This document shows positions 23,701 through 55,934 of a stretch of DNA of 64,000 bases, piece by piece. Each line of letters opens with the position of its first letter. The stretch's first letter is position 1. The notes beneath the pieces are model-generated. The model was not told where the DNA came from, did no database searches, and saw only the letters and a list, made by a program, of their open reading frames with translations. Origin of the DNA: Paraphysoderma sedebokerense (lineage: Eukaryota; Blastocladiomycota; Physodermatomycetes; Physodermatales; Physodermataceae); the NCBI GenBank assembly GCA_025602915.1, contig JAHLJZ010000006.1, positions 310,001 through 374,000 of the forward strand, given 5' to 3'. The position numbers and the translations under genes were made by a program.

Positions 23701-24086
23701 CCCTAATATCGACGTCTCGTACTTTAATCCACAAATTTATGTTCATGTTGACCGATCCGCAGAAGAATGAACGGCAAATCTCGCTCTGGTGTCCAGTGAT
23801 CGTTCTTATTTATTCTCAACTCAATTCCATCTTATTTCCTTTCCTCCCATCCACATTACCCCCTCTCGCCGATTCATTAAACGTATCATCCCCTGATTAT
23901 CCATTCGGATTTTCATCAACGCAAGATTATAAAAAGTACAAACTTGCGGAAAATGTACCCGAATTATTTTATTTGGCGACCAAATTACTCGAAACGCAAA
24001 ATATGGATTTACGAAACGTTTTGCAGGACTTTCTGGAAAATGTTAGCGTGAATATATTGAAGGGTTCTTGGACGGTATCCATTTAA
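17705..24086 (+). CDS. SEC7: Large Arf guanine-nucleotide exchange factor, BIG/Sec7 family
   Basis: BIG/Sec7 proteins activate Arf1 at the trans-Golgi. Four or more exons give about 2,050 residues, typical of the family. The N-terminal dimerisation region (from [20 protein letters not shown]) is followed by a long Ser/Thr/Asn-rich linker. Then comes the HUS box area, [20 protein letters not shown] and [15 protein letters not shown]. The Sec7 domain begins near 20250 ([20 protein letters not shown]). It contains [20 protein letters not shown] and the catalytic glutamate in [10 protein letters not shown] at about 20518-20551, then [18 protein letters not shown]-terminal HDS1-4 HEAT-like repeats follow ([40 protein letters not shown]-like). 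The catalytic glutamate is present and no truncation is seen. It converges on the carotenoid gene carRA, 141 bases away. Confidence 0.96.
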
Positions 24087-24227: not shown

Positions 24228-26057
24228 TCATTCAGCGAAATACATTGTTTTTATCAAAATTTTGATTTGCCTGAACTTATTGACATATGCTCGTTCAGGA
24301 TACCTTGGAGTTTTTCTGATTTCGTCACCAATCGCGGTATACACTTTCAAGGCCACACGAACCGGAGTTCTATACAATCTAGGCAGCATTTTGATTCCTT
24401 TCTCCCCCGAAATTGCATAGGTATTCGCCAATGAAATAAGATCATGTGCGCATTCCTTTAGAATCTGGTTATCTTTGTCGGTAATTTCTCCTTTTCGACA
24501 TCGCTGAAGCAAAGCGGACTTGGAAAAGGAGGATTTCTGCGGGAAGAATTCAGGAGGAACATACACGCGATCCAATTTAGCGTCCGTAATAATATCTCTA
24601 GCGATGTTAATGACTTGAAGAGCCACACCCATATCGATTGCGTGTTGAACGATATTCTGGGAATTTTTGATTTGCTTTTGCCAATCGGATCCGTATACCG
24701 AGTGGAACATCATGTAGGTACACATTTCACCAACTGATGACGCCACATACTTTGAATATTGAACTAAATCTTTGATATCGTTGGTTGGTTTCTTCTCCAA
24801 GTCCCATTCATAACCGTTGATTAAATCGTGAACTGCATGCTTAGGTACACTGTTCGCGACACGGAAAAAGTTCCTCATAGCGGAGATCTGACAGGAAGTG
24901 AAGTCGCGCCCGTGTTTCGACCAAGCGATAGGAACCTGGTTGTATGTATCGTCGATGAATTTTCGAATCAGGGTAAGTTGAGTTCTTTTTCTTTCAGGAC
25001 TCGTGTGTTTATTATCAGCAATGTCATCGGTCACTCGGCAAAAGCCGTACATGGCGTGAATGTCGTAGCGGAGGTCCCACGGATAAAGTTTTGCAGCGAG
25101 TGAGAATGATTTGGACCCGATGCGTATGAGTTCTGTTGATAGCTTTATATCTGAAAGAAGAGTCGAGTCTAGTTGACATTCGTCTGTTAAGGTTGCTTTC
25201 ACGAAGAGCATGAACACCTGAAAGGAAGATGCATTCGAAGGAACGGGAAGAGCACCAGTGACTTTCATTATAGCCAAGGTACGATCGGCTGCGACGAAGC
25301 CACAGACTAAGTAAAGAATATAATCAGCCAATTTTGTTCGAATCAATGTAAGATTCGGGAGACTGTATGACTTACTCAAAATGACATTGGTAAGGAAGAA
25401 GAATACAGCCTCTTCGAGAGGGAGATAATCGTTCACCATTATACCGGTTGTTGCGTCCCCCATAATTTCCCATGCTCCCTCACGTAATGCTGTGGTGTCA
25501 ATCCAACACAGATATAAAGTAGACACTGCAATACAAAATGAAGCTCTCTTCCGTTGACGCCAAATATAATGTGCCGCAATTGCCCACTGTAGCGATATAA
25601 TAGGCGCGATCCACCACAGAATTGATCCTAAATAGAATGTCGGTGTACCTGGGATACCATTTTGCCAGCCCCACACCCCCATGGCGAGAAAGAACGTGAG
25701 GGGAATGAAGCGAATAGCTTCGCTTTGCTTAGCCGCCACAAGATGATGCGTAGGTAGATCACCGAACTGGAAGATAATGGAAGCGAATAATCCGGACATC
25801 AAGGTCTGTATGATGAAAAACATGTACTCTTCATACGGTACCCAACCAACTCTGCCTATAACACAAGTATCGCAGTAACCCCAAGCTCCTTTGTAAACTA
25901 TGTAATTATCCCAAGGCGTCGTGTATGTGAAGGCCATAAAGGCTAAGAATGATAGTTTGAGAACATCGAATTTGTTGATGAACGGGCGAGTGAGAAGAAA
26001 GAGGACGAAGAGGGTAGGAAGATTATAATATAAATGAACCTGCATGTATGTCAGCAT
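24228..26057 (-). CDS. carRA: Bifunctional lycopene beta-cyclase / phytoene synthase
   Basis: This is an intronless frame of 609 residues. The N-terminal half is the fungal membrane lycopene cyclase, a fusion of CrtYc- and CrtYd-like halves. It shows PWDNYI (48-53), PYEEYMFF (74-81) and, in the second half, LPLEEAVFFF (212-221); the E-E pairs are the family catalytic signature. The C-terminal half is phytoene synthase. It has the first Asp-rich motif DDIAD (344-348), GYEWDL (415-420) and the second motif ARDIITD (486-492). It therefore condenses two GGPP to phytoene and later closes both rings of lycopene to give beta-carotene. The layout cyclase-then-synthase is the fungal one (carRA, crtYB, al-2). 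It diverges from the desaturase gene across a shared promoter. All visible catalytic residues are kept. Confidence 0.97.
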   Translation of the reverse strand: MLTYMQVHLYYNLPTLFVLFLLTRPFINKFDVLKLSFLAFMAFTYTTPWDNYIVYKGAWGYCDTCVIGRVGWVPYEEYMFFIIQTLMSGLFASIIFQFGDLPTHHLVAAKQSEAIRFIPLTFFLAMGVWGWQNGIPGTPTFYLGSILWWIAPIISLQWAIAAHYIWRQRKRASFCIAVSTLYLCWIDTTALREGAWEIMGDATTGIMVNDYLPLEEAVFFFLTNVILSKSYSLPNLTLIRTKLADYILYLVCGFVAADRTLAIMKVTGALPVPSNASSFQVFMLFVKATLTDECQLDSTLLSDIKLSTELIRIGSKSFSLAAKLYPWDLRYDIHAMYGFCRVTDDIADNKHTSPERKRTQLTLIRKFIDDTYNQVPIAWSKHGRDFTSCQISAMRNFFRVANSVPKHAVHDLINGYEWDLEKKPTNDIKDLVQYSKYVASSVGEMCTYMMFHSVYGSDWQKQIKNSQNIVQHAIDMGVALQVINIARDIITDAKLDRVYVPPEFFPQKSSFSKSALLQRCRKGEITDKDNQILKECAHDLISLANTYAISGEKGIKMLPRLYRTPVRVALKVYTAIGDEIRKTPRYPERAYVNKFRQIKILIKTMYFAE

Positions 26058-26680
26058 GGTGGGCGATTAGAAGTGAGTGGTCTACTAGTCGAATTGGTGT
26101 CTGGGCAATTTCGAAGGCCGAAGTGTAGAGGAGTTACCAGTGTACTGATGGATTAAGACCTTCGTTAAATGTAGTATCTCCATTTACTCCTAGAGAAAGG
26201 AGGAATATTCAAGGGGATATGTCGCAGAATTTTTTTTTGGCAAAAACACGGAGTAACTTGGTTATTCCTCTCTCCTGGAACACCACGGTCCCACTTGAAA
26301 GGCAATCTTCCAAAATGTCTGGAAACTAAGGGACAAAAAGAGCTTAATAATTGATGTCGTATAATTTTACATGGATAATTTAATATGGTATGATATGAGG
26401 GCGGACGGAGGCCCGAGAAGGCCCAATGTCCATTATTAATGAAAGCACTTTGGCGCGTCAGTTTGCTCCGTAATGCGACTCCGCGATGGAATGCGTGCAG
26501 TCTACCCCGTCATTTTCTCCGTATTGCTCTCCGATTTATAACCCCTCCCTCGCCCCCGAACGTTTGCAGTCCTTGATACCCTCTTTAAGATCTCTTGCAG
26601 TTTTCAAAACTACTCCAGCATTCATATTCCCTGACTCCGTATTCTTACATCCCATTCCTACTCTTATTATCCCTGCCGTG
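26058..26680. promoter_or_regulatory. Shared divergent promoter of carRA and carB
   Basis: A space of 623 bases separates the two start codons. The half near carRA is AT-rich, and the half near carB is CT-rich with a probable leader from about 26490. An in-frame upstream ATG at 26486 could extend carB, but the added residues are not like the family. A bidirectional promoter between these two genes is known from Mucorales, where it answers blue light. Confidence 0.75.
26301..26310 (-). promoter_or_regulatory. APE-type light-response motif GAANNTTGCC
   Basis: The minus strand reads GAAGATTGCC, an exact match to the al-3 proximal element consensus GAANNTTGCC. That element is described in Neurospora light-induced carotenoid genes and reported in carRA-carB promoters of Mucorales. 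Eight fixed bases in a 623-base promoter, either strand, would arise by chance in about 2% of cases. Function is inferred. Confidence 0.5.
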
Positions 26681-28562
26681 ATGCTTAAAAGAGACGGAAA
26701 ACTCAAAGTTGTTATCATCGGCGCCGGTGCTGGCGGTACCGGGACCGCCGCTCGACTTGCTCATGCTGGATATGATGTCCATGTTTACGAAAAGAACGAT
26801 TTTCATGGTGGAAGATGTTCTCTGATCCACAAGAATGGTTTCAGGTTTGACCAAGGCCCGAGGTAAATCTTCGCGACTCTGCGCGGCTCTGAATATACAG
26901 GCTAACTATCCCCCTCTTAAGTCTTTATTTGATGCCAAAAATTTTTGAACAAACCTTTACGGAACTTGGGGAAGATATAAAAGATCACCTAGAACTCGTT
27001 CAATGCGATCCAAATTACTATTTATACTTTGATGATGGTAGCAAAATGGAGTTATCTAGTGACTTGGCAAAGATGAAGCAAGAGATCGAGAAAATCGAAC
27101 CAGGCTCATACGGAAGCTTTCTTCAGTTCTTGAAGGAGGGACAAGTCCATTATGACATCAGCGAGGATATGGTATTGACGAAGAACTTTGAAAAGTGGTC
27201 AGACTTTTTCAACCCCAAGAATGCCCCAGCTCTATTTCATCTTCACATCCACGACACACTCTACAGCCGCATATCGAAATTTTTCAAAACTGACAAACTT
27301 CGTCGAGCCTTCACCTTTCAATCAATGTACATGGGAATGAGCCCTTACGATGCGCCAGCTACGTATTCTCTCCTTCAATACACTGAATTCGCAGAAGGTA
27401 AAGCCAATTTATTCTCTGACGATGAGTTGCCATGATCCTTATACGGTTTTCGCGTTTCAGGGATCTGGTATCCAAAAGGCGGTTTCAACAAAGTCATCGA
27501 ACGTTTGGAGCATCTTGCTAAGAAGCGTGGAGCCAAATTTCATTACGGCAAGGGCGTTTCCAAGATCAATATCGCCGAACCAACGGGATCTCACGACGTC
27601 AACGCAAAAGAAAACTATCGCCACACTACTGGTGTCACTCTCGACGATGGAACTGTTGTCAATGCAGATATTGTGGTTTGCAACGCTGACCTGGTCTACG
27701 CTTACAACAATCTCTTACCACCCAATAACTATGCTAAACGACTTCAAAACAAGGACCAGACATCTTCCTCGTTCAGTTTTTATTGGGGCATGAAAAGGAA
27801 AATTCCCGAGCTCGATGGCCACAATATATTCCTTGCCGCCGATTACCGCGAAAGTTTTGATCAAATCTTCCAAGATTACACCCTTCCAGCAGAACCAAGT
27901 TTCTATATACATTGTCCATCTCGTCTAGATGAAGCCGCAGCCCCCGCTGGCAAGGAAGCTATCACAGTATTGATTCCTACAGGTTGCATCAATCCTGAGA
28001 AACCTCAAGACTACGAAGCGCTGCGCCAACGAGCTCGTAAGCAAGTGATCTCTATCATCGAACAGAGAACAGGAATCAAAAATTTTGAGTCTCTTATCGA
28101 ATGTGAAGTATTTAACACTCCTCAAATCTGGACTCAAAAATTCAATATCTTCAACGGCGCTATTTTAGGACTCTCCCACACAGGTACCTTAATTCTGACC
28201 TTCTTCATTCATATTTAAATCACCAGAGTACTAACGGTATTTTTTCTTCCAAAGTTCCTCAAGTCTGTTGGATGCGTCCATCTACTCGTCATGGTGAATT
28301 TAACAATCTGTTCTTCGTTGGCGCTTCTACTCACCCTGGTACCGGTGTCCCAATCGTCCTCTACGGTGCTCGTCTCGTCACAGATCAGATCAATAAAAAT
28401 GTCAAAGATAAGACTCTATACAAAGGGGATAAAGGGAACTCGATGTCGATTCTAATTGCACTCTTAGTGGCAATTATTGCTATTTGGTACGCAGTGAACA
28501 ATCCTGAAGCGGTGGAGAACACGATTGAGATGCTTCGTAGTGTAGTTGCGCAACCAAATTAG
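26681..28562 (+). CDS. carB: Phytoene desaturase (fungal CrtI type)
   Basis: Four exons (26681-26862, 26922-27397, 27461-28183, 28255-28562) join in frame to give 562 residues. CrtI-type enzymes take phytoene to lycopene with FAD. The FAD dinucleotide fold is at the N terminus (VVIIGAGAGGTGTAARLAHA, residues about 11-29), then YEKNDFHGGRCS and FDQGPSLYLMP. The middle has MYMGMSPYDAPATYSLLQY and WYPKGGFNKVIERL. The C terminus has the carotenoid-desaturase signature VGASTHPGTGVPIVLYGARL and a hydrophobic membrane tail of about 20 residues (ILIALLVAIIAIWYAV). The start at 26681 puts the FAD motif at the usual distance from the N terminus. It is transcribed towards the Brp/Blh gene. Confidence 0.97.
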
Positions 28563-28820
28563 TTAAGCTTTTCAATTTGATAATCACTGTACGAGATGTG
28601 ATCACTATTCCATCGTCAAATTTTTTTGTATTTCGTATATGGTCTGCTGTTTTCTGTCAAAATATCTGAATGTTCAGTGTGATGCATAACAATATATTCT
28701 GTTTATTTACTTTTCATGATGTCAACTGCAATTAATTGATCGGAAACCGACCCGCGGTTTAAAAATTGGCCACTTGTTCATTTTACTCTTATGAATGAGA
28801 TCGCAGACAGATAATTACAG

Positions 28821-30248
28821 TTATTTGCTCTGTTTAAACTTCCACCACCAAAACATTTCGACCAAAAACATATGTGGTGTTGTCAGCGTACTTATAGTCA
28901 CAATGAAAGCTGGCCAAAATGAATCAAAGTTAAAGTTATATACCACGCTAAGCCAATCTCTCTTAGTCCCCAATATATCATTATAATTTTGGAAATAAAA
29001 TGACATATATCCAATGACAACTATCACAGGCAATGTAAACGGGATGACCAGTGTGATCAACCCGAATAAACTCTTCGCGTCGCCATTCTTGCGGAATGGC
29101 TGAGAACGGGATCCGTGATACGAAGGTGACTTTTGATTTCCATACTTTTGATTGAGATGATTATCTGCCTGTTGTGGATATAGTAAGTATTGTTTAATCG
29201 CGAAAAAATATTCGAAGGAATGCCATATTCCAAAGTAAATCGCGAACGCTACGAAAAGGTCGGTGATATGAAACATGAGGCAAAATAAAATTGATTTGAA
29301 AATCTCGATACCGGGTTTCCACCTGCTCGTCAAATATACATTGTCTTGAACGAGAAGTGGTTGAAATGATGAGAGCATTAGGATTACAAAGTGTTGCACG
29401 ACACTGACAAGCAGGATTGTGTCGTAATGTGGCCAACTGACGTTTTCCTCCAAAACCCAGGACAGGCCTGTAACTCTGTACATAATCGGGAATGATAGCG
29501 ATCGTTGTGACAATGCAATTAGGCCCATTAATAAAATTCCTCTCGACAAAAATAGCAATCTCCAAGGAAAATGGATTTTCCCTTTCGATTTGTCGTTTGC
29601 CTTCTTGATTCTATCGAGTTCATTGGTCTGTAAGTATCCAAAATCTCCTTGACCGAAATGATACGCAGACATCGCGACAAAAGTGAAGAAAGTAATGGCT
29701 GGTGATATATACCACATCGTCGCTTGTAGTGTCATCAGTAGAATATAAGCTGAATAAAATATAACTGAAGGATACCGAGCCAATTCTTTTATCTTCGTAG
29801 ACATGAATAATCTCGAATAATAGCGACTGGACTTTCTAATTGAAGTTGCATGCAAATGAAGATGTGATGAGGATATGAGATGCTGACGATTTCTAAGATC
29901 AGGTTTCTTTCTGATATTGGCTAATCGCGTATTAGCGATTGCTCCAGTTTTGACGATCTGCTGTTGTCGGCAACAGTTCTTAGATACTTCATTCTCCTTT
30001 AAACAAATGTCTTTCCAGATTCGATAGAACAGCAAATGATCGACTGCTCCATGAGGTACGCCGCAGAAAATGACACATAACACAATAACTGGTATTTTCA
30101 GGTATTTGTCGAAGATAGCTGGTGTTGCATTAGCCAATAGTAGAATGGAGATTGTCGGTATGAACAATGGATATGGAAGAGCTCCATCAATTTCGAAAAA
30201 TCGAAGTCGAGAATGTTTGATAGCTATTTGAGATGGAGTTGAATTCAT
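28821..30248 (-). CDS. blh: Brp/Blh-family beta-carotene 15,15'-dioxygenase (retinal-forming)
   Basis: Brp/Blh enzymes are membrane proteins, unrelated to RPE65-type oxygenases, that split beta-carotene to two retinal molecules. The intronless frame gives 475 residues from the first ATG at 30246-30248. The open frame continues 36 codons upstream without an ATG. All family boxes are present: GVPHGAVDH (63-71), YHFGQGD (196-202), YFGIWHS (338-344) and TTPH (456-459). Histidines stand where bacterial Blh needs them. About eight hydrophobic helices are visible. A basic, His/Arg/Ser-rich insert of roughly 75 residues follows the first box and is absent from the bacterial enzymes I know. It converges on carB (258 bases between stops). 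Family known mainly from bacteria, archaea, some protists and viruses; in fungi retinal is normally made by a CCD enzyme. Activity is inferred from motifs. Confidence 0.93.
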   Translation of the reverse strand: MNSTPSQIAIKHSRLRFFEIDGALPYPLFIPTISILLLANATPAIFDKYLKIPVIVLCVIFCGVPHGAVDHLLFYRIWKDICLKENEVSKNCCRQQQIVKTGAIANTRLANIRKKPDLRNRQHLISSSHLHLHATSIRKSSRYYSRLFMSTKIKELARYPSVIFYSAYILLMTLQATMWYISPAITFFTFVAMSAYHFGQGDFGYLQTNELDRIKKANDKSKGKIHFPWRLLFLSRGILLMGLIALSQRSLSFPIMYRVTGLSWVLEENVSWPHYDTILLVSVVQHFVILMLSSFQPLLVQDNVYLTSRWKPGIEIFKSILFCLMFHITDLFVAFAIYFGIWHSFEYFFAIKQYLLYPQQADNHLNQKYGNQKSPSYHGSRSQPFRKNGDAKSLFGLITLVIPFTLPVIVVIGYMSFYFQNYNDILGTKRDWLSVVYNFNFDSFWPAFIVTISTLTTPHMFLVEMFWWWKFKQSK

Positions 30249-38976: not shown

Positions 38977-41531
38977 TTACCCAAGCATCTTTCGCGTCCA
39001 ACTACCATGAAACCCGAAAGGTACAGAACAAGGCAGATAAGCTCGAGCGATTTCGTGAAGATCGCGACCATCGAGAAAGAGAATAAACGATCGGTTGACT
39101 AAATGTAGGAAAGTAAAATTTTTAATATTATCATGAACGGTCGAAATTACATGTGCGAAGGCATACCTTTGGTGTCAAGTACGACGCTAATTAGGATACC
39201 TTTGTCTTCTTCCGTTTCTGAAGCTTCGGGATCGGGGATCTGTGTTCAAGTATCGTTTTGAATAATATGAATATTAAATTGAATCCATATCATAACAAAC
39301 CATTAGGGTCTCGGAGGGATAGCATCCACTCTCTTTCCATTCTGTTCTGGTCTTCCCTGATAAATCGGCCTTCACAATAGTGTCCCAAATGGAATTCTCC
39401 TGGGTCCTGGTTTCGACACTAATAGAGATACCGTACGCATACTGATGATGCCTCATGTGGCAATTTGGATTTATACGGGGAAACTCGACGCTAAAATCCG
39501 TGCGATGAGTGTACCCAGCCTGTACATAATGTCAGTACTAATAGAGTCGAAAGGAGAAAGGGGAGAGCTAGTAGTTACTTCAGGAATTTCGTTTTTCCTT
39601 ATCTTATAAATTGCAGCCGCCTGTCAAGGAACGCGGTGTTAATTGAAAAAATATCTGGTTGGTCAAGCTTCAAGTAAATTACCTCCGGAACTTTGCTCAA
39701 GACATATCGTCTGACAGTGCCGGGCGGGAATGGCGGCATTCCCAAAGTTCTCAAGTTTCTCAACCCGAAACAATGAACAATGGTATCGTCATCATAAGCA
39801 TTTAAATCGACGCAAATACTTCCGTCGGATTCTTCCCATGCGTTGACCACATTCAATGCAAAACAAGCGGGAGCTTTAAAAATACAAATCTGATCCCGCT
39901 TTTCTCGATCGATGATATGAAAGTACATTGGGGACGAGTGATCGAACCGAAGCGCGTCACGATAGTTGCGAGCCCAGTATAGTCGAAGACTACCAAGACC
40001 GGCTGAAAATGGGTATACAACAATAATCACGTAATTTTTAGTTAAAGCGAAAGAATGAGCGTAGGTAGGTTTCGCTTGAACAGAGGCAATCATATGTCCC
40101 TTCAAAATTCTAGTCAGAAAAGCGGATGCAATTCGGCAAATGTGAAATAAGACACGTACGGGAGGTTCAAAATGATCTTCGTCCAATATAGAGAAAATAT
40201 TGTAAGTTCCTTTCGTGGGCGATAAGGAATAAGCTATCGTCTCTTTTTCTCTCTCGTCGCGTTGCACGACAGCCGGGGCTCCGTCACCCTGGAATAACGG
40301 ATTGATATCGGAATATCTAGGTAAACAATCAATTGTCATTAATTGTTGTCGTCATTCTTGCTAGACGGCATACCTAAAAACTCGCTTAGGAATCAATGTT
40401 ATAGGATCAATTTCCTGAAGCAAGCTCGCGTCCGTCAAGCAAATGAGATGATCGCCTCCTTTTGACCTCCCGAGCGGAAAATCTGGAATAATATTCATAT
40501 TCACGAGTGATCCAGAAGGGTCATTTTCAATTTGCTTTGAGTACGATTGAGCGATAGCATTTGGGTCAGTCCCGTGGACTTTTTTGTAATCTCGTGCATA
40601 ATCGCGGACCTGTCATATGTAAATGTTTTATAAGGACGAGACCAATGTCAAGGAGAGGGAATACAAAAACAAACCGTTGCCTCCACACCATTACTTGTAA
40701 ACCGAGACCGATATTTAATTTGATTTTCCTTGCCATTCACCTCAAAACGATGAACTAAGGATAACCCATCGTACCAATGATCGCTGCGCAATCGAATCGT
40801 TAAGACCCAACGCAGCAAAAATTCTAGTCCCAAGAAAATCAACGTACAAGGAGAAAACGCGAAGATTTTTTCGTTTACTAAGATACTCGATATCAAATAT
40901 GCCTGGACCGATCCTGTAGAATGCGCCATTCAGCCAAGTTGGAAGGCTTCCAGACAGGTTAAGATTTTGTTGTTCCGTTATTTCTTCACCGTTGGAAAAG
41001 CCTCTGTTGAAAACTCATTAGCTTCATGAATTTCCTCAAATTCAACGAGAAGGCGAGTGGGACGTACTGGATATATGGTACCCGTCGATCATACAGCTCA
41101 GAATCAGCATTGTAACTAACATTCAAAACCGGTTCTCCAACGATAGTCCCGCTATCTCGGCCCTGCCTCCCTTCCAGCCCTGTTTGTACTCCTCCAATTT
41201 TATAGTAAGATGAACCAAGCTCTCCTTCTGCAGGAATTCCTTGAGCTGATCTTGTGCCCACTGGGGTAATATACGGAGGATATGCGGCGGCACTTGACAC
41301 AGAGCTGGAGGCGCGAGAGCGTGGTGACGAAGAATCATAGGATTCTTGAAGGCCGCTTGTGTCTTGTAAATAGAGCTCAGACAACTTTTCTCTGGCTTTA
41401 ACAATTCCAGGCTCTTCGGATTCTTCAAAAGATTCGATTGTGGTATGCACGACCCGAGGATTGATATCCTCTGTTCGCTTTTGCGGGCTTACCGGTGGAG
41501 AGGGAAATTGAGAATCTTGCGGAATTTCCAT
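38977..41531 (-). CDS. Carotenoid cleavage oxygenase (RPE65/CCD family) lacking two iron ligands, probable pseudoenzyme
   Basis: Family members use a non-heme iron held by four histidines on a seven-bladed propeller. Exons join in frame. A disordered Ser/Pro-rich N terminus (MEIPQDSQFPSPPVSPQKRT) of about 150 residues is followed by SGSLPTWLNGAFYRIGPGIF, DHWYDGLSLVHRFEVNGKEN, VRDYARDYKKVHGTDPNAIA, LICLTDASLLQEIDPITLIP, GTYNIFSIL, KPTYAHSFALTKNYVIIVVY, ALNVVNAWEESDGSICVDLN, GILISVVLDTK and VPFGFHGSW near the C terminus. Two iron histidines remain: AHSF (like RPE65 H241) and GFHG (like H527). The other two are gone. The whole stretch from RYSDINPLFQG to FSIL, where TAHPH should lie, has no histidine, and FHHxN reads LNVVN. 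Frames and splices look intact, so this is probably a kept gene, not decay. Confidence 0.85.
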
Positions 41532-52985: not shown

Positions 52986-55934
52986 ATGGCCATACCCGCT
53001 CAGAAGACTTCGGAAGTAAGTTCTCTGATCCATTGCTTCTGTAAAAACACTTTGGGACGATTGATTATCAGAACTTTTGAGAACCACAAATAACGAGTAT
53101 ACAGCATCATATCATACTGACATTGTATCGACATTTACTTTGGCTTTATCTCAAAATATTTTTAAAACTATCCTAGGCTTAAAGCTTGTGTTCCTTTCTC
53201 CGAATTTCCTTTCGCAAACGATCCCAATTTCTGTGGATTTTCCGATTACGACTCTGACTCCGATGGACGAGAATCTGCTGACTCCATTTCATCGGCATTC
53301 TCTGATGTATCTTCTGTCGGAACTTCTGGACAGACATCCGACGATGACGGCGCTAGTGTTCGATCTAGGGCTAGCAGTGTGGCCAGTCAGAATATTGATG
53401 ACATTGAAGATGAAGCTGGCAGTTTGACGACAGAAGGTATCACGCAATTGCAAGACATTAATTCAGAACAGGGGCAAGATAATGACGATTCGTTGGCGAT
53501 CGCCGGGGAGGCTATTGAACCCTTCGAGCAGAAAGGTGATATTGAAAACTACGAGTCAGCTTCAGCAGATGTGCTTCTATCTGTGAAGAGCAGTCCCCGT
53601 AGCGTGAAGTCAGAGAGATCTGTCGTTCGAAAATCGCCATCAACTGGGTTCTCCGTGAGAGAGCCAGGCACTGAAGGTGTAACCGAGAACATGTCTGATC
53701 CTGGAGATGATGAGATTGGAAGTCCGTTGGAAGATGAAAATTATTCAAACGTTGTGCACAGTGGTGAAGTCACTCTCAAGTCATTTTACGTCGACCCGTC
53801 CTTGCCCCAGGAGAAGTTGGACCCATTTTCATCCCTGGAGGACGAAATAGAATCTCTTTATGCTGTAAACTTCGCTAAGAAGAAGATTTCAGAGAACACT
53901 GAAATGGATTTATTCCAAGGCTGTTATATCTCTGAGGAAGTTTGTTCCCAACTTCGTAAGATTTTGACTGCATCTGAGGTGTACCGAAAGTAAGTTCAAC
54001 AATGCTTTAATGAAAGCTTTAAATGGTTACAAAATTAATGTAGAAGTCTTTTTGTGCGTAGAACACATGCAGAAGAATGTGAACACATGAGATCATTCGA
54101 CCACAATTCAATAATGGAATTAGCGTCTGTGAAAACGTCGATCCCCACAAAGTAAGTTTTAATCATCATTTCCTCATCGCTCCAAAAAAAAGAATCGAAT
54201 CTAATAGCGTACTTAAATAGGGTCCTTCAGCGAGCAAAAGCCCGGTTGCAGAAACTCTACACTTTACCTCGAATCCGTCGGGATGAAGTTGCATCACAAC
54301 TCGGGATTCTGATTGATTTGTTGCAAATGAATCCGCCGATACTTATTGACTACATCGCCGACCATCATATCCCCGAGAACGAACTTAGGCTCGATTCACA
54401 AACTTTGAGCGCGGAATTTTCGAATCTGGAACGACGCCAATCACCGCAGGGAGAGGACTTAACGACTCGATTGTTGCGTCAACGGTTCTTAAGATCCGAT
54501 TATAAAAATACTGACTTTCGTAAGTTAATGGCTTATCTATGATGAATTCGTTGACACCAGCTCAATTTCAAACCGTAATCACAGGTCATCCGGCGACTAC
54601 CTCAGAATTGTGCATACTGATGAACGATTCTATTATTACTATTCCGCCTGCTCTTCTTTCGGGTTTGTTAATCACGTCGTCGTCTGTATTCTTACCCTAT
54701 GATTAAACACTGTACTATTCTTTCTTCTAGTCTTTGATGGCTCTGTTAAGCTTTTGGCCGACACGTTACAGAGGTTAAGCCTGCCAGGCAATATTCAAGG
54801 ATACGATCGTATCAAGGCCGACGAAGTCGGCGTTATAACTGTTTCAGATATTTATAGGCCGATCAATGGTAGAATGATTGTAATGGATATGAATTTTCCC
54901 ACTACTTGCTAACTTCAACTTGTCTATCAATAGATATTACGGATTTCGTCTCTCCTATGGACTACCTTCCTCCCTCTGTGACATCGCTAGTCCCGCCCGC
55001 GCCAGCCGATTTGGTCGCTCGGCTCAACAAAGATGTTCCACTCCCTCGTCACAAATTTAATGATGACATTCTTCAGTGTTACTGGTGCCTCTCTACTCAA
55101 CCGCAGTGGAGGCCTGGGCCGAAAAATGTTAGACTGTGCAATTCTTGCGGGTTACGTTATGCCAGTACTGTTAAGCGAGATTTGGAGACTGAACTACGAA
55201 ACCTTCGAAGGTTAAAAAATTGGGTAGAGGAGTTGGAGAAGAACCGGAGAGACATGGGAGCTGGACGACCGAGAACTGAAGCTCAAAAAAAGTCACTCAT
55301 GAGACGGAGGCCATGGAATGTAGTCGATAATTTGGTGACGGCCTATGCTATGTTGAACGTAGAATCTGACCAATTTCCGGCCTCGTATCCATTTTATGAC
55401 CCCAGTTTATTCCGTGTTATTCCTCGTGATTTACTTGCAGATAACAAAGATTCAACATCGTCTCGACCAGGTGCTGCTAATCTGAATGATATTACATCAG
55501 ACACTTTTTCTATCAGTTCTCCCTCTACGTTATCATCACCTTCTAGCTCTACAGCAGTCCCCGCAATGTCATCCGGTCGTCTTCCAAACGCATGCGAATG
55601 GTGTGGAACCGTGTATTCACGGACATGGAGAAAAGGGCCGACGGGAGAACGTTCGTTATGTGGAGGTTGTGGCTTAGTCTATGAAAACCGAGTTCTGAAT
55701 GCCAACGCGGACAGTAGGAAACGTAAGAGGGATAGAGACCGGCAGGGTGAAGACGAGGAGGAAGAAAACTTAGATACTGATTCTTCAGCGCTTGATGGGA
55801 CTGAGGGATCAAGTGATGAGAGCCGGAGTGAAGTTGAATCAATTGAAACCCGTTCGTCTCTTGGTAAACCGTTTCGAAAGCGATTGAAGTATCTATCGAA
55901 AGAAATCATTGACGACAGTGACGAGGACATGTAA
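52986..55934 (+). CDS. Two-finger GATA-like zinc-finger protein
   Basis: A short first exon (MAIPAQKTSE, from 52986) ends in GTAAGT and joins a Ser/Asp-rich exon (DPNFCGFSDYDSDSDGRESA; SDDDGASVRSRASSVASQ). Then come acidic, Ser-rich sequence and helical exons (LPRIRRDEVASQLGILIDLL, TRLLRQRFLRSDYKNTDF). The C-terminal exon, from about 54934, has two GATA-type fingers. The first is CYWC...CNSCGLRYAS, with only 16 residues between cysteine pairs. The second is CEWC...CGGCGLVYENR, with 18. Both have the tryptophan and the CxxCGL turn. A basic coil KRDLETELRNLRRLKNWVEE follows finger one. A basic patch RKRKRDRDRQ and an acidic tail end the protein. It is probably a DNA-binding regulator. Which GATA group it belongs to cannot be told by eye. 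Confidence 0.75.

Follow-up and report, generated by a model that had tools for sequence, protein, structure and literature searches.

In Fusarium, the car cluster (carRA, carB, carX and carO) places fungal carRA and carB beside the gene of a retinal-forming beta-carotene oxygenase (PMC5715946). This oxygenase, CarX, belongs to the CCD family, and the rhodopsin gene carO forms part of the cluster. The CyclOp of Blastocladiella emersonii (BeGC1/BeCNG1) consists of a rhodopsin-guanylyl cyclase fusion and a CNG-type channel, with the last step of retinal synthesis described as the work of a carotenoid dioxygenase (PMC4046227). The same source reports that blocking carotenogenesis abolishes the phototaxis of Blastocladiella zoospores and that retinal restores it. 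Brp/Blh enzymes are known from bacteria, where blh is linked to crt genes (Rius et al. 2023, PMC10016063). That study also describes Blh in the heterotrophic eukaryotes Thecamonas and Oxyrrhis, including a crtIBY-Blh fusion (SAHNTO) in Thecamonas, and assigns their carotene genes to Actinobacteria, Bacteroidetes or Archaea. In the choanoflagellate giant-virus cluster that it covers, blh adjoins carotene genes and the cyclase is crtY.

The window analysed here is a stretch of 64,000 nucleotides from the genome of Paraphysoderma sedebokerense. This species is a member of the Blastocladiomycota and a parasite of Haematococcus, and the fungal host assumed in the original prediction is borne out. 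Its zoospores are described as uniflagellate with a lipid globule (PMC4851982). Between positions 24228 and 30248, three genes, carRA, carB and a Brp/Blh gene (blh), lie side by side at the coordinates first proposed (Table 1). The genes carRA and carB are divergent, with 623 bp between their starts (428 bp with the alternative carB start), and carB and blh lie tail to tail with 257 bp between their ends. No further plausible gene was seen among the three, either in the open reading frames of at least 100 amino acids or on reading the sequence. The gene models, the spacing and the reading frames thus agree with the prediction of three adjacent genes within 6 kb. Divergent carRA and carB are also a feature of the Mucorales. 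The gap between the two starts may act as a shared promoter, and a scan for short strings found no telling regulatory motifs in it.

Table 1. Features of the window discussed in the text.
Feature	Position	Strand	Basis or remark
carRA, bifunctional lycopene cyclase / phytoene synthase, 586 aa spliced	24228..26057	-	PF00494, TIGR03462, nr identity
Divergent intergenic region carRA/carB	26058..26680	.	gene orientation; putative shared promoter
carB, phytoene desaturase, 562 aa, four exons	26681 (or 26486)..28563	+	splice model, TIGR02734
Brp/Blh-family beta-carotene 15,15'-dioxygenase (predicted), 475 aa, intronless model	28821..30248	-	PF15461, TIGR03753
CCD (RPE65-family) gene, 8.7 kb from blh	38995..40999	-	PF03055; not counted in cluster

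The locus is probably a fungal carotene-to-retinal gene cluster that supplies a rhodopsin-guanylyl cyclase encoded on another contig. CarRA would join two molecules of GGPP to form phytoene, CarB would desaturate phytoene to lycopene, and CarRA would then cyclise lycopene to beta-carotene. The Brp/Blh protein, a putative membrane protein, would cut the central 15,15' bond of beta-carotene, yielding two molecules of retinal, and so would fill the role held by CarX in Fusarium. The three genes would be co-expressed, and the retinal would charge the rhodopsin-guanylyl cyclase. In the flagellated zoospore, the cGMP formed by the latter would control a cyclic-nucleotide-gated channel and may thereby serve phototaxis. 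If genes were placed at random, the chance of a single-copy blh adjoining carB would be about two divided by the number of genes, which, with the genes uncounted, may be of the order of 1e-4.

A complete gene set from GGPP to retinal had been predicted, and the products of all three genes score above curated HMM cut-offs. The carRA open frame of 609 amino acids contains a canonical intron of 69 nt (25307-25375, GTAAGT...TTAG). Its removal leaves a protein identical to an nr entry (P0032) from P. sedebokerense. This protein joins a squalene/phytoene synthase domain (PF00494, E = 7.2e-55 in the profile search) to two stretches of CarR lycopene cyclase, for which TIGR03462 gives 119.7 bits (cut-off 39.4), and this is the fused organisation of fungal carRA. 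PF18916 had no match in either the whole-genome search or that profile search, though TIGR03462 passes its cut-off. The relatives of carRA are the usual fungal ones, that of B. emersonii being 39% identical. The splice model of carB has introns at 26863-26921, 27398-27460 and 28184-28254, and its product is a CrtI-type phytoene desaturase (TIGR02734, 435.4 bits against 238.1). Polyprenyl synthase matches were obtained at three places in the genome.

The 475-residue protein belongs to the Brp/Blh family by the HMM comparison that had been proposed for it, with 91.1 bits for PF15461 (cut-off 28, E = 1.2e-25) and 115.4 bits for TIGR03753 (cut-off 95.25). It is the sole PF15461 match in the 27.3 Mb genome. 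Several weak GT..AG pairs could delimit in-frame introns, none of them preferred; the single-exon model is supported by an apparent database entry with the same 475 amino acids, on a contig of 631767 bases. A simple hydropathy profile gives eight peaks, some of them overlapping. Residues 81-160 form a loop of about 80 extra, basic residues (17 K/R, 4 D/E). A search of solved structures (PDB) with the Blh alignment (A1) returned no match.

The named relatives of Blh that were found are bacterial or archaeal, and blh has a GC content of 0.387, slightly under the minimum of 0.395 among four genes around it, as would be expected if the locus were an assembly contamination or chimera. Such an artefact is very improbable. 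The contig is 632 kb long, the spliced carB lies on one side of blh, and eukaryotic genes surround it, including a flanking Sec7/BIG-type gene. The GC3 and codon-usage distance of blh fall within the range of the four neighbours, and its similarity to bacterial proteins is just ~21-30% over the longer aligned stretches. Contamination at the locus, named at the outset as a possible refutation, is thus judged unlikely.

Identity of Blh to its relatives in general is ~20-30% over long stretches. The phylogeny that had been called for was run on 99 rows, all kept, made up of 32 proteins (that of the window included) and 67 loci, with other eukaryotic Blh sequences left out. The protein fell in no supported set; its end branch measured 3.77, and the tree carried warnings of long branches meeting. 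Word-based protein searches, which are of limited sensitivity, gave 30 + 1 non-self matches, most of them nameless and none named as fungal; no Blh named from Blastocladiella appeared. The same database is rich in fungal proteins, and the carRA search drew some from Blastocladiella, Allomyces, Catenaria and Sorochytrium. Four scans of viral contigs gave 130, 8, 61 and 34 pattern matches, none of which was confirmed by tblastn; the source may even so be a remote viral one. Blh is a deep orphan, in that fungal-named, viral and close bacterial relatives were not found in the searches. It was presumably acquired by lateral transfer, with a probably bacterial donor. The original prediction had set CCD enzymes as fungal against Blh as non-fungal, a contrast that is too sharp, since Rius et al. 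mention fungi in their Blh tree (PMC10016063). No description of Blh in Paraphysoderma, or of a fungal carRA-carB-blh cluster, was found in the portions of the literature that were covered.

All Brp/Blh boxes had been described as intact. This holds for H66, H197, H343 and H459 (PHG, YHFG, WHS and PHM), which are conserved in 99, 99, 99 and 98 of the 99 aligned rows, window included. It fails at a further position, where Y347 stands in place of H192 of the marine enzyme, one of four histidines that a bacterial Blh requires. This equivalence is based on the histidine spacing in the alignment and on the 66A03 sequence of the marine Blh. The histidine is a marker of activity and not a definition of the family, and the window protein lacks it. 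In the marine enzyme, the alanine mutant of H192 is reviewed as having less than 5% activity (PMC9227343). The protein could therefore be a membrane pseudo-enzyme devoid of dioxygenase activity, for example a binder of carotenoid or retinal, and its long lone branch, its extra basic loop and the tyrosine itself would fit such a role. In addition, inspection of the neighbourhoods of two other blh genes without this histidine (L060 and L076) revealed neither a carotene nor a rhodopsin gene. We nevertheless regard a pseudo-enzyme as quite improbable. The frame is open and the four histidines are kept, and the position is non-histidine in 25 of the 99 rows, window included, so Y347 does not exclude membership of the family. 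One of these genes, on a Psychroflexus contig (L054), adjoins a rhodopsin gene, and Blh activity is thus still likely on prediction. Four genomes with such a Blh were tested; all four had a rhodopsin match and a single Blh match, and three had no RPE65 match. Both H71 and the H192 equivalent occur in 64 of the 99 rows, H71 alone in 24, the H192 equivalent alone in 10 and neither in one. This distribution is suggestive of H71 substituting for the lost histidine, although the rows are related and the exception, L054, is the gene that adjoins a rhodopsin gene.

A user of the retinal appears to be present: a rhodopsin-guanylyl cyclase fusion is encoded in the genome, alongside a CNG channel candidate. 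The search for a rhodopsin-guanylyl cyclase that had been suggested located one outside the cluster, on contig C17. Its spliced product carries both Pfam domains, the cyclase in part, with the first and last exons lying outside the model. The rhodopsin contains the motif ADIGAKVF, which includes the Schiff-base lysine, and the protein has the CyclOp organisation of a type I rhodopsin with this lysine fused to a class III cyclase. Among solved structures it best matches 6sir (4.3e-40), titled "nucleotide cyclase", and 6ao9 (6.3e-39), titled "Bacterio-rhodopsin/guanylyl cyclase 1 fusion protein". The CNG-channel-like gene on C24 is a candidate pieced together from rough frame pieces, since the ion-channel family search had no match on that contig. 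Among prokaryotes, a microbial rhodopsin match was found in 16/16 genomes with Blh, hand-picked from the 67 Blh loci, against 0/14 controls.

Blh may not be the sole maker of retinal, because the CCD family (PF03055) has matches at five places in the genome, and three of these CCDs (on C5, C43 and C2) keep all four iron-ligand histidines on inspection of rough translations. Retinal might then come mainly from an intact CCD, with Blh redundant or adapted to another carotenoid, such as host-derived pigments during infection. A carotenoid dioxygenase is described for Blastocladiella, as noted above, and a carotenoid oxygenase for some chytrids (PMC9616733). We consider this unlikely. No ligand-intact CCD lies near carRA and carB on their contig (C6), whereas Blh does. 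The CCD 8.7 kb from blh has two of its four ligand histidines replaced (the third by alignment, the first by eye). The C43 stretch matches solved structures of the CCD family, the best being 6vcf, presumably the Nitrosotalea enzyme. That enzyme is reviewed as inactive on beta-carotene (PMC9227343), which says little on the C43 protein itself.

With Blh as the probable source of retinal, the cluster would work like the Fusarium type without being a member of it, because its oxygenase is a Blh and its rhodopsin is encoded on C17. It shares the Brp/Blh family (TIGR03753, PF15461) with the bacterial loci, which include the blh-rhodopsin adjacency of L054, and differs from them in its fused fungal carRA, its eukaryotic gene structure and the distance and unsupported placement of its Blh. 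The usual fungal relatives of carRA set it apart from Thecamonas and Oxyrrhis, and its CarR-type cyclase and want of a confirmed viral relative from the giant-virus cluster. The rhodopsin-cyclase fusion and candidate channel resemble the CyclOp of B. emersonii, but the last step would be carried out by Blh. A fuller account, in which our confidence falls a little short of even, is that a blastoclad swapped the CCD step for a laterally acquired Brp/Blh, inserted beside an ancestral carRA-carB pair. An algal parasite would thereby have gained a one-locus chromophore supply for its CyclOp eye, with an active site that functions in the absence of the characterised enzyme's fourth histidine.

If this is true, a fungal carotene cluster would physically include a retinal-forming enzyme from a second family, unrelated to the first, and the capacity of fungi to form retinal should be scored for Blh besides CCD oxygenases. 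A Blh with Y347 would offer a natural test of which histidines the enzyme needs. The cluster would also account for how a zoosporic fungus might produce chromophore of its own while parasitising algae rich in carotenoids.

The original prediction placed a carotene-to-retinal gene cluster in a fungus, using a Brp/Blh enzyme, and profile searches of the assembly (27.3 Mb, 195 contigs) bear out the family assignment. The 475-residue window protein is matched by PF15461 (E = 1.2e-25) and by TIGR03753 (“beta-carotene 15,15'-dioxygenase, Brp/Blh family”) at 115.4 bits, above the cut-off of 95.25, and the genome contains no PF15461 match other than blh. A protein database entry of equal length apparently exists. 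CarRA contains a phytoene-synthase domain (E = 7.2e-55) and two lycopene-cyclase stretches matched by TIGR03462; PF18916 gave no match in the profile search of the genome. CarB reaches 435.4 bits with TIGR02734 (phytoene desaturase family), against a cut-off of 238.1. Polyprenyl synthase matches occur at three places in the genome.

Positions of the genes and loci discussed (window positions unless a contig or locus is named)
Feature	Position	Strand	Remarks
Sec7/BIG-type gene	end at 24086		flank on carRA side
carRA	26057 to 24228	minus	609 aa unspliced
carRA intron	25375-25307	minus	GTAAGT...TTAG
carB	start 26681 (alternative 26486)	plus	3 introns: 59, 63, 71 nt
blh	30248 to 28821	minus	single-exon frame, 475 aa
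NAD-dependent epimerase gene			beyond blh
RPE65-family gene	38995-40999	minus	from genome profile search
Protein bearing two GATA zinc-finger stretches (PF00320)	54906-55931	plus	
Rhodopsin, then guanylyl cyclase (L002)	C17:75967-77352		both on the same strand
Channel segments (L099)	C24:103500-110500		adjoin cyclic-nucleotide-binding domain
Second rhodopsin match (L003)	C45:15614-15877		weak (25 bits), internal stops
Psychroflexus MAG, rhodopsin frame	L054:3486-4211		
Psychroflexus MAG, blh frame	L054:4320-5219		

The best match of carRA in nr is “bifunctional enzyme CarRP-like protein [Paraphysoderma sedebokerense]”; this species is a blastoclad that parasitises Haematococcus. The 23 residues that follow residue 227 of the unspliced frame are absent from the nr protein, and excision of the intron yields its sequence exactly. 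The starts of carRA and carB are 623 bp apart (428 bp with the alternative carB start), and this gap could be a shared promoter. The carRA-carB arrangement is divergent in the Mucorales. The genes carB and blh lie tail to tail, with 257 bp between them. Literature searches, covering titles, abstract starts and main-text passages of openly accessible papers, returned no description of a fungal carRA-carB-blh cluster. Fungi are stated to occur in a published Blh tree (Rius et al. 2023; PMC10016063), in passages that give no fungal names, and a blh gene has been reported in the alga Guillardia (PMC7714340). The retinal cluster described in Fusarium contains CarX and the rhodopsin CarO (PMC5715946).

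The active-site histidines were compared in an alignment of 99 rows, comprising 32 proteins from protein-database searches (window protein included) and all 67 genome loci. Residues H66, H197 and H343 each align with His in 99/99 rows, and the columns of H459 and H71 hold it in 98 and 88 rows, respectively. Position 347 is Tyr in the window protein and His in 74/99 rows. By spacing and the sequence of 66A03, a characterised marine bacterial Blh, we take this position to be His192 of that enzyme. As summarised in a review, Ala at His21, His78, His188 or His192 leaves 66A03 with <5% activity (PMC9227343). All Brp/Blh boxes had been called intact; this holds for H66, H197, H343 and H459 but needs one exception, since the equivalent of the activity-sensitive His192 is replaced by Tyr. 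The genomes of four rows without His at 347 (prokaryote loci L054, L060, L076 and L086) were examined for retinal-system genes. In these assemblies, which may be incomplete, a rhodopsin match and a single Blh match are present in all four, and an RPE65-type match is absent from three. Two His-bearing genomes were compared, one with a single Blh match and the other with two. The blh and rhodopsin frames of L054 are divergent neighbours, and no carotene or rhodopsin genes were seen near blh of L060 and L076. All in all, the absence of His at 347 is no strong argument against the activity predicted from sequence. The stretch L054:3486-5219, with its rhodopsin-adjoining Blh lacking the His192 equivalent, offers a test case for the His requirement.

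Matches to the carotenoid cleavage oxygenases (CCDs, RPE65-family) occur at five places in the genome (C5, C43, C2, C1 and C6), and thus the retinal-making role may be common to Blh and CCDs, or may have been taken over by Blh. Inspection of rough translations indicates that the CCDs of C5, C43 and C2 keep all four His. The linkage of blh to carRA and carB favours Blh in this role. The CCD of C1 is incomplete in the stretch examined, and that of C6, within the window, has lost two His. Its third iron-ligand His is Asn in an alignment with solved CCD-family enzymes and the first is Val by eye, with the second and fourth kept; the protein is possibly a non-oxygenase member. Surveys of zoosporic fungi score “carotenoid oxygenase” for retinal (PMC9616733; PMC8371127). 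As giant-virus enzymes are among their queries, a Blh query may have been included; the main text of PMC9616733 makes no mention of Paraphysoderma.

The 67 genome loci belong chiefly to Rhodothermota, Balneolota, Bacteroidota and Actinomycetota, with a few Euryarchaeota and Proteobacteria, and share about 21-30% identity with the window protein over longer stretches. In the maximum-likelihood tree (99 rows), the window protein has an end branch of 3.77, with long-branch warnings, and falls into no supported group. Scans of viral contigs confirmed no viral relative. A database of about 5.8 billion proteins, many fungal ones included, returned no match named as fungal among 30 non-self matches (most of them nameless) and one further, nameless, non-self match. 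The simplest reading is that blh was gained by lateral acquisition. Its codon-usage distance to the pool of four neighbouring genes is 0.127 (neighbours' own range 0.097-0.135) and its GC3 is 0.401 (0.400-0.445); both lie inside the neighbours' ranges and give no sign that the gene arrived recently. The total GC of blh, at 0.387, is slightly below the neighbours' 0.395-0.428.

Such a cluster had been proposed to supply rhodopsin chromophore, and a genome search for rhodopsin and rhodopsin-guanylyl cyclase genes located a fusion on C17. With two introns spliced by script, a single frame results that contains both Pfam domains; its cyclase domain is partial, and the first and last exons lie outside the model. 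The spliced product shows a coiled-coil-like linker by eye and the motif ADIGAKVF, which carries the Schiff-base lysine. Its best solved-structure matches are 6sir, titled “nucleotide cyclase” (4.3e-40), and 6ao9, titled “Bacterio-rhodopsin/guanylyl cyclase 1 fusion protein” (6.3e-39), and the gene is, by its predicted product, a rhodopsin-guanylyl cyclase fusion of the CyclOp type. On C24, where the PF00520 profile search of the genome gave no match, a rough concatenation of the segments matches KCNH, SthK, HCN and CNG channels, and the gene is a candidate cyclic-nucleotide-gated-channel-like counterpart of BeCNG1. Ion-channel matches on C41, C82 and C97 have identical scores and spans, which suggests duplicated stretches in the assembly.

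Own production of the retinal chromophore has been reported for the chytrid Rhizoclosmatium (PMC12264004). The zoospores of P. sedebokerense are described as transient and uniflagellate, with a lipid globule, and a light-triggered change of its elongate amoebae was, by the source's own account, not formally tested (PMC4851982). In Blastocladiella emersonii, a rhodopsin-guanylyl cyclase fusion is reported to serve retinal-dependent zoospore phototaxis (PMC4046227). In P. sedebokerense, the user of the retinal would be the rhodopsin-guanylyl cyclase of C17.
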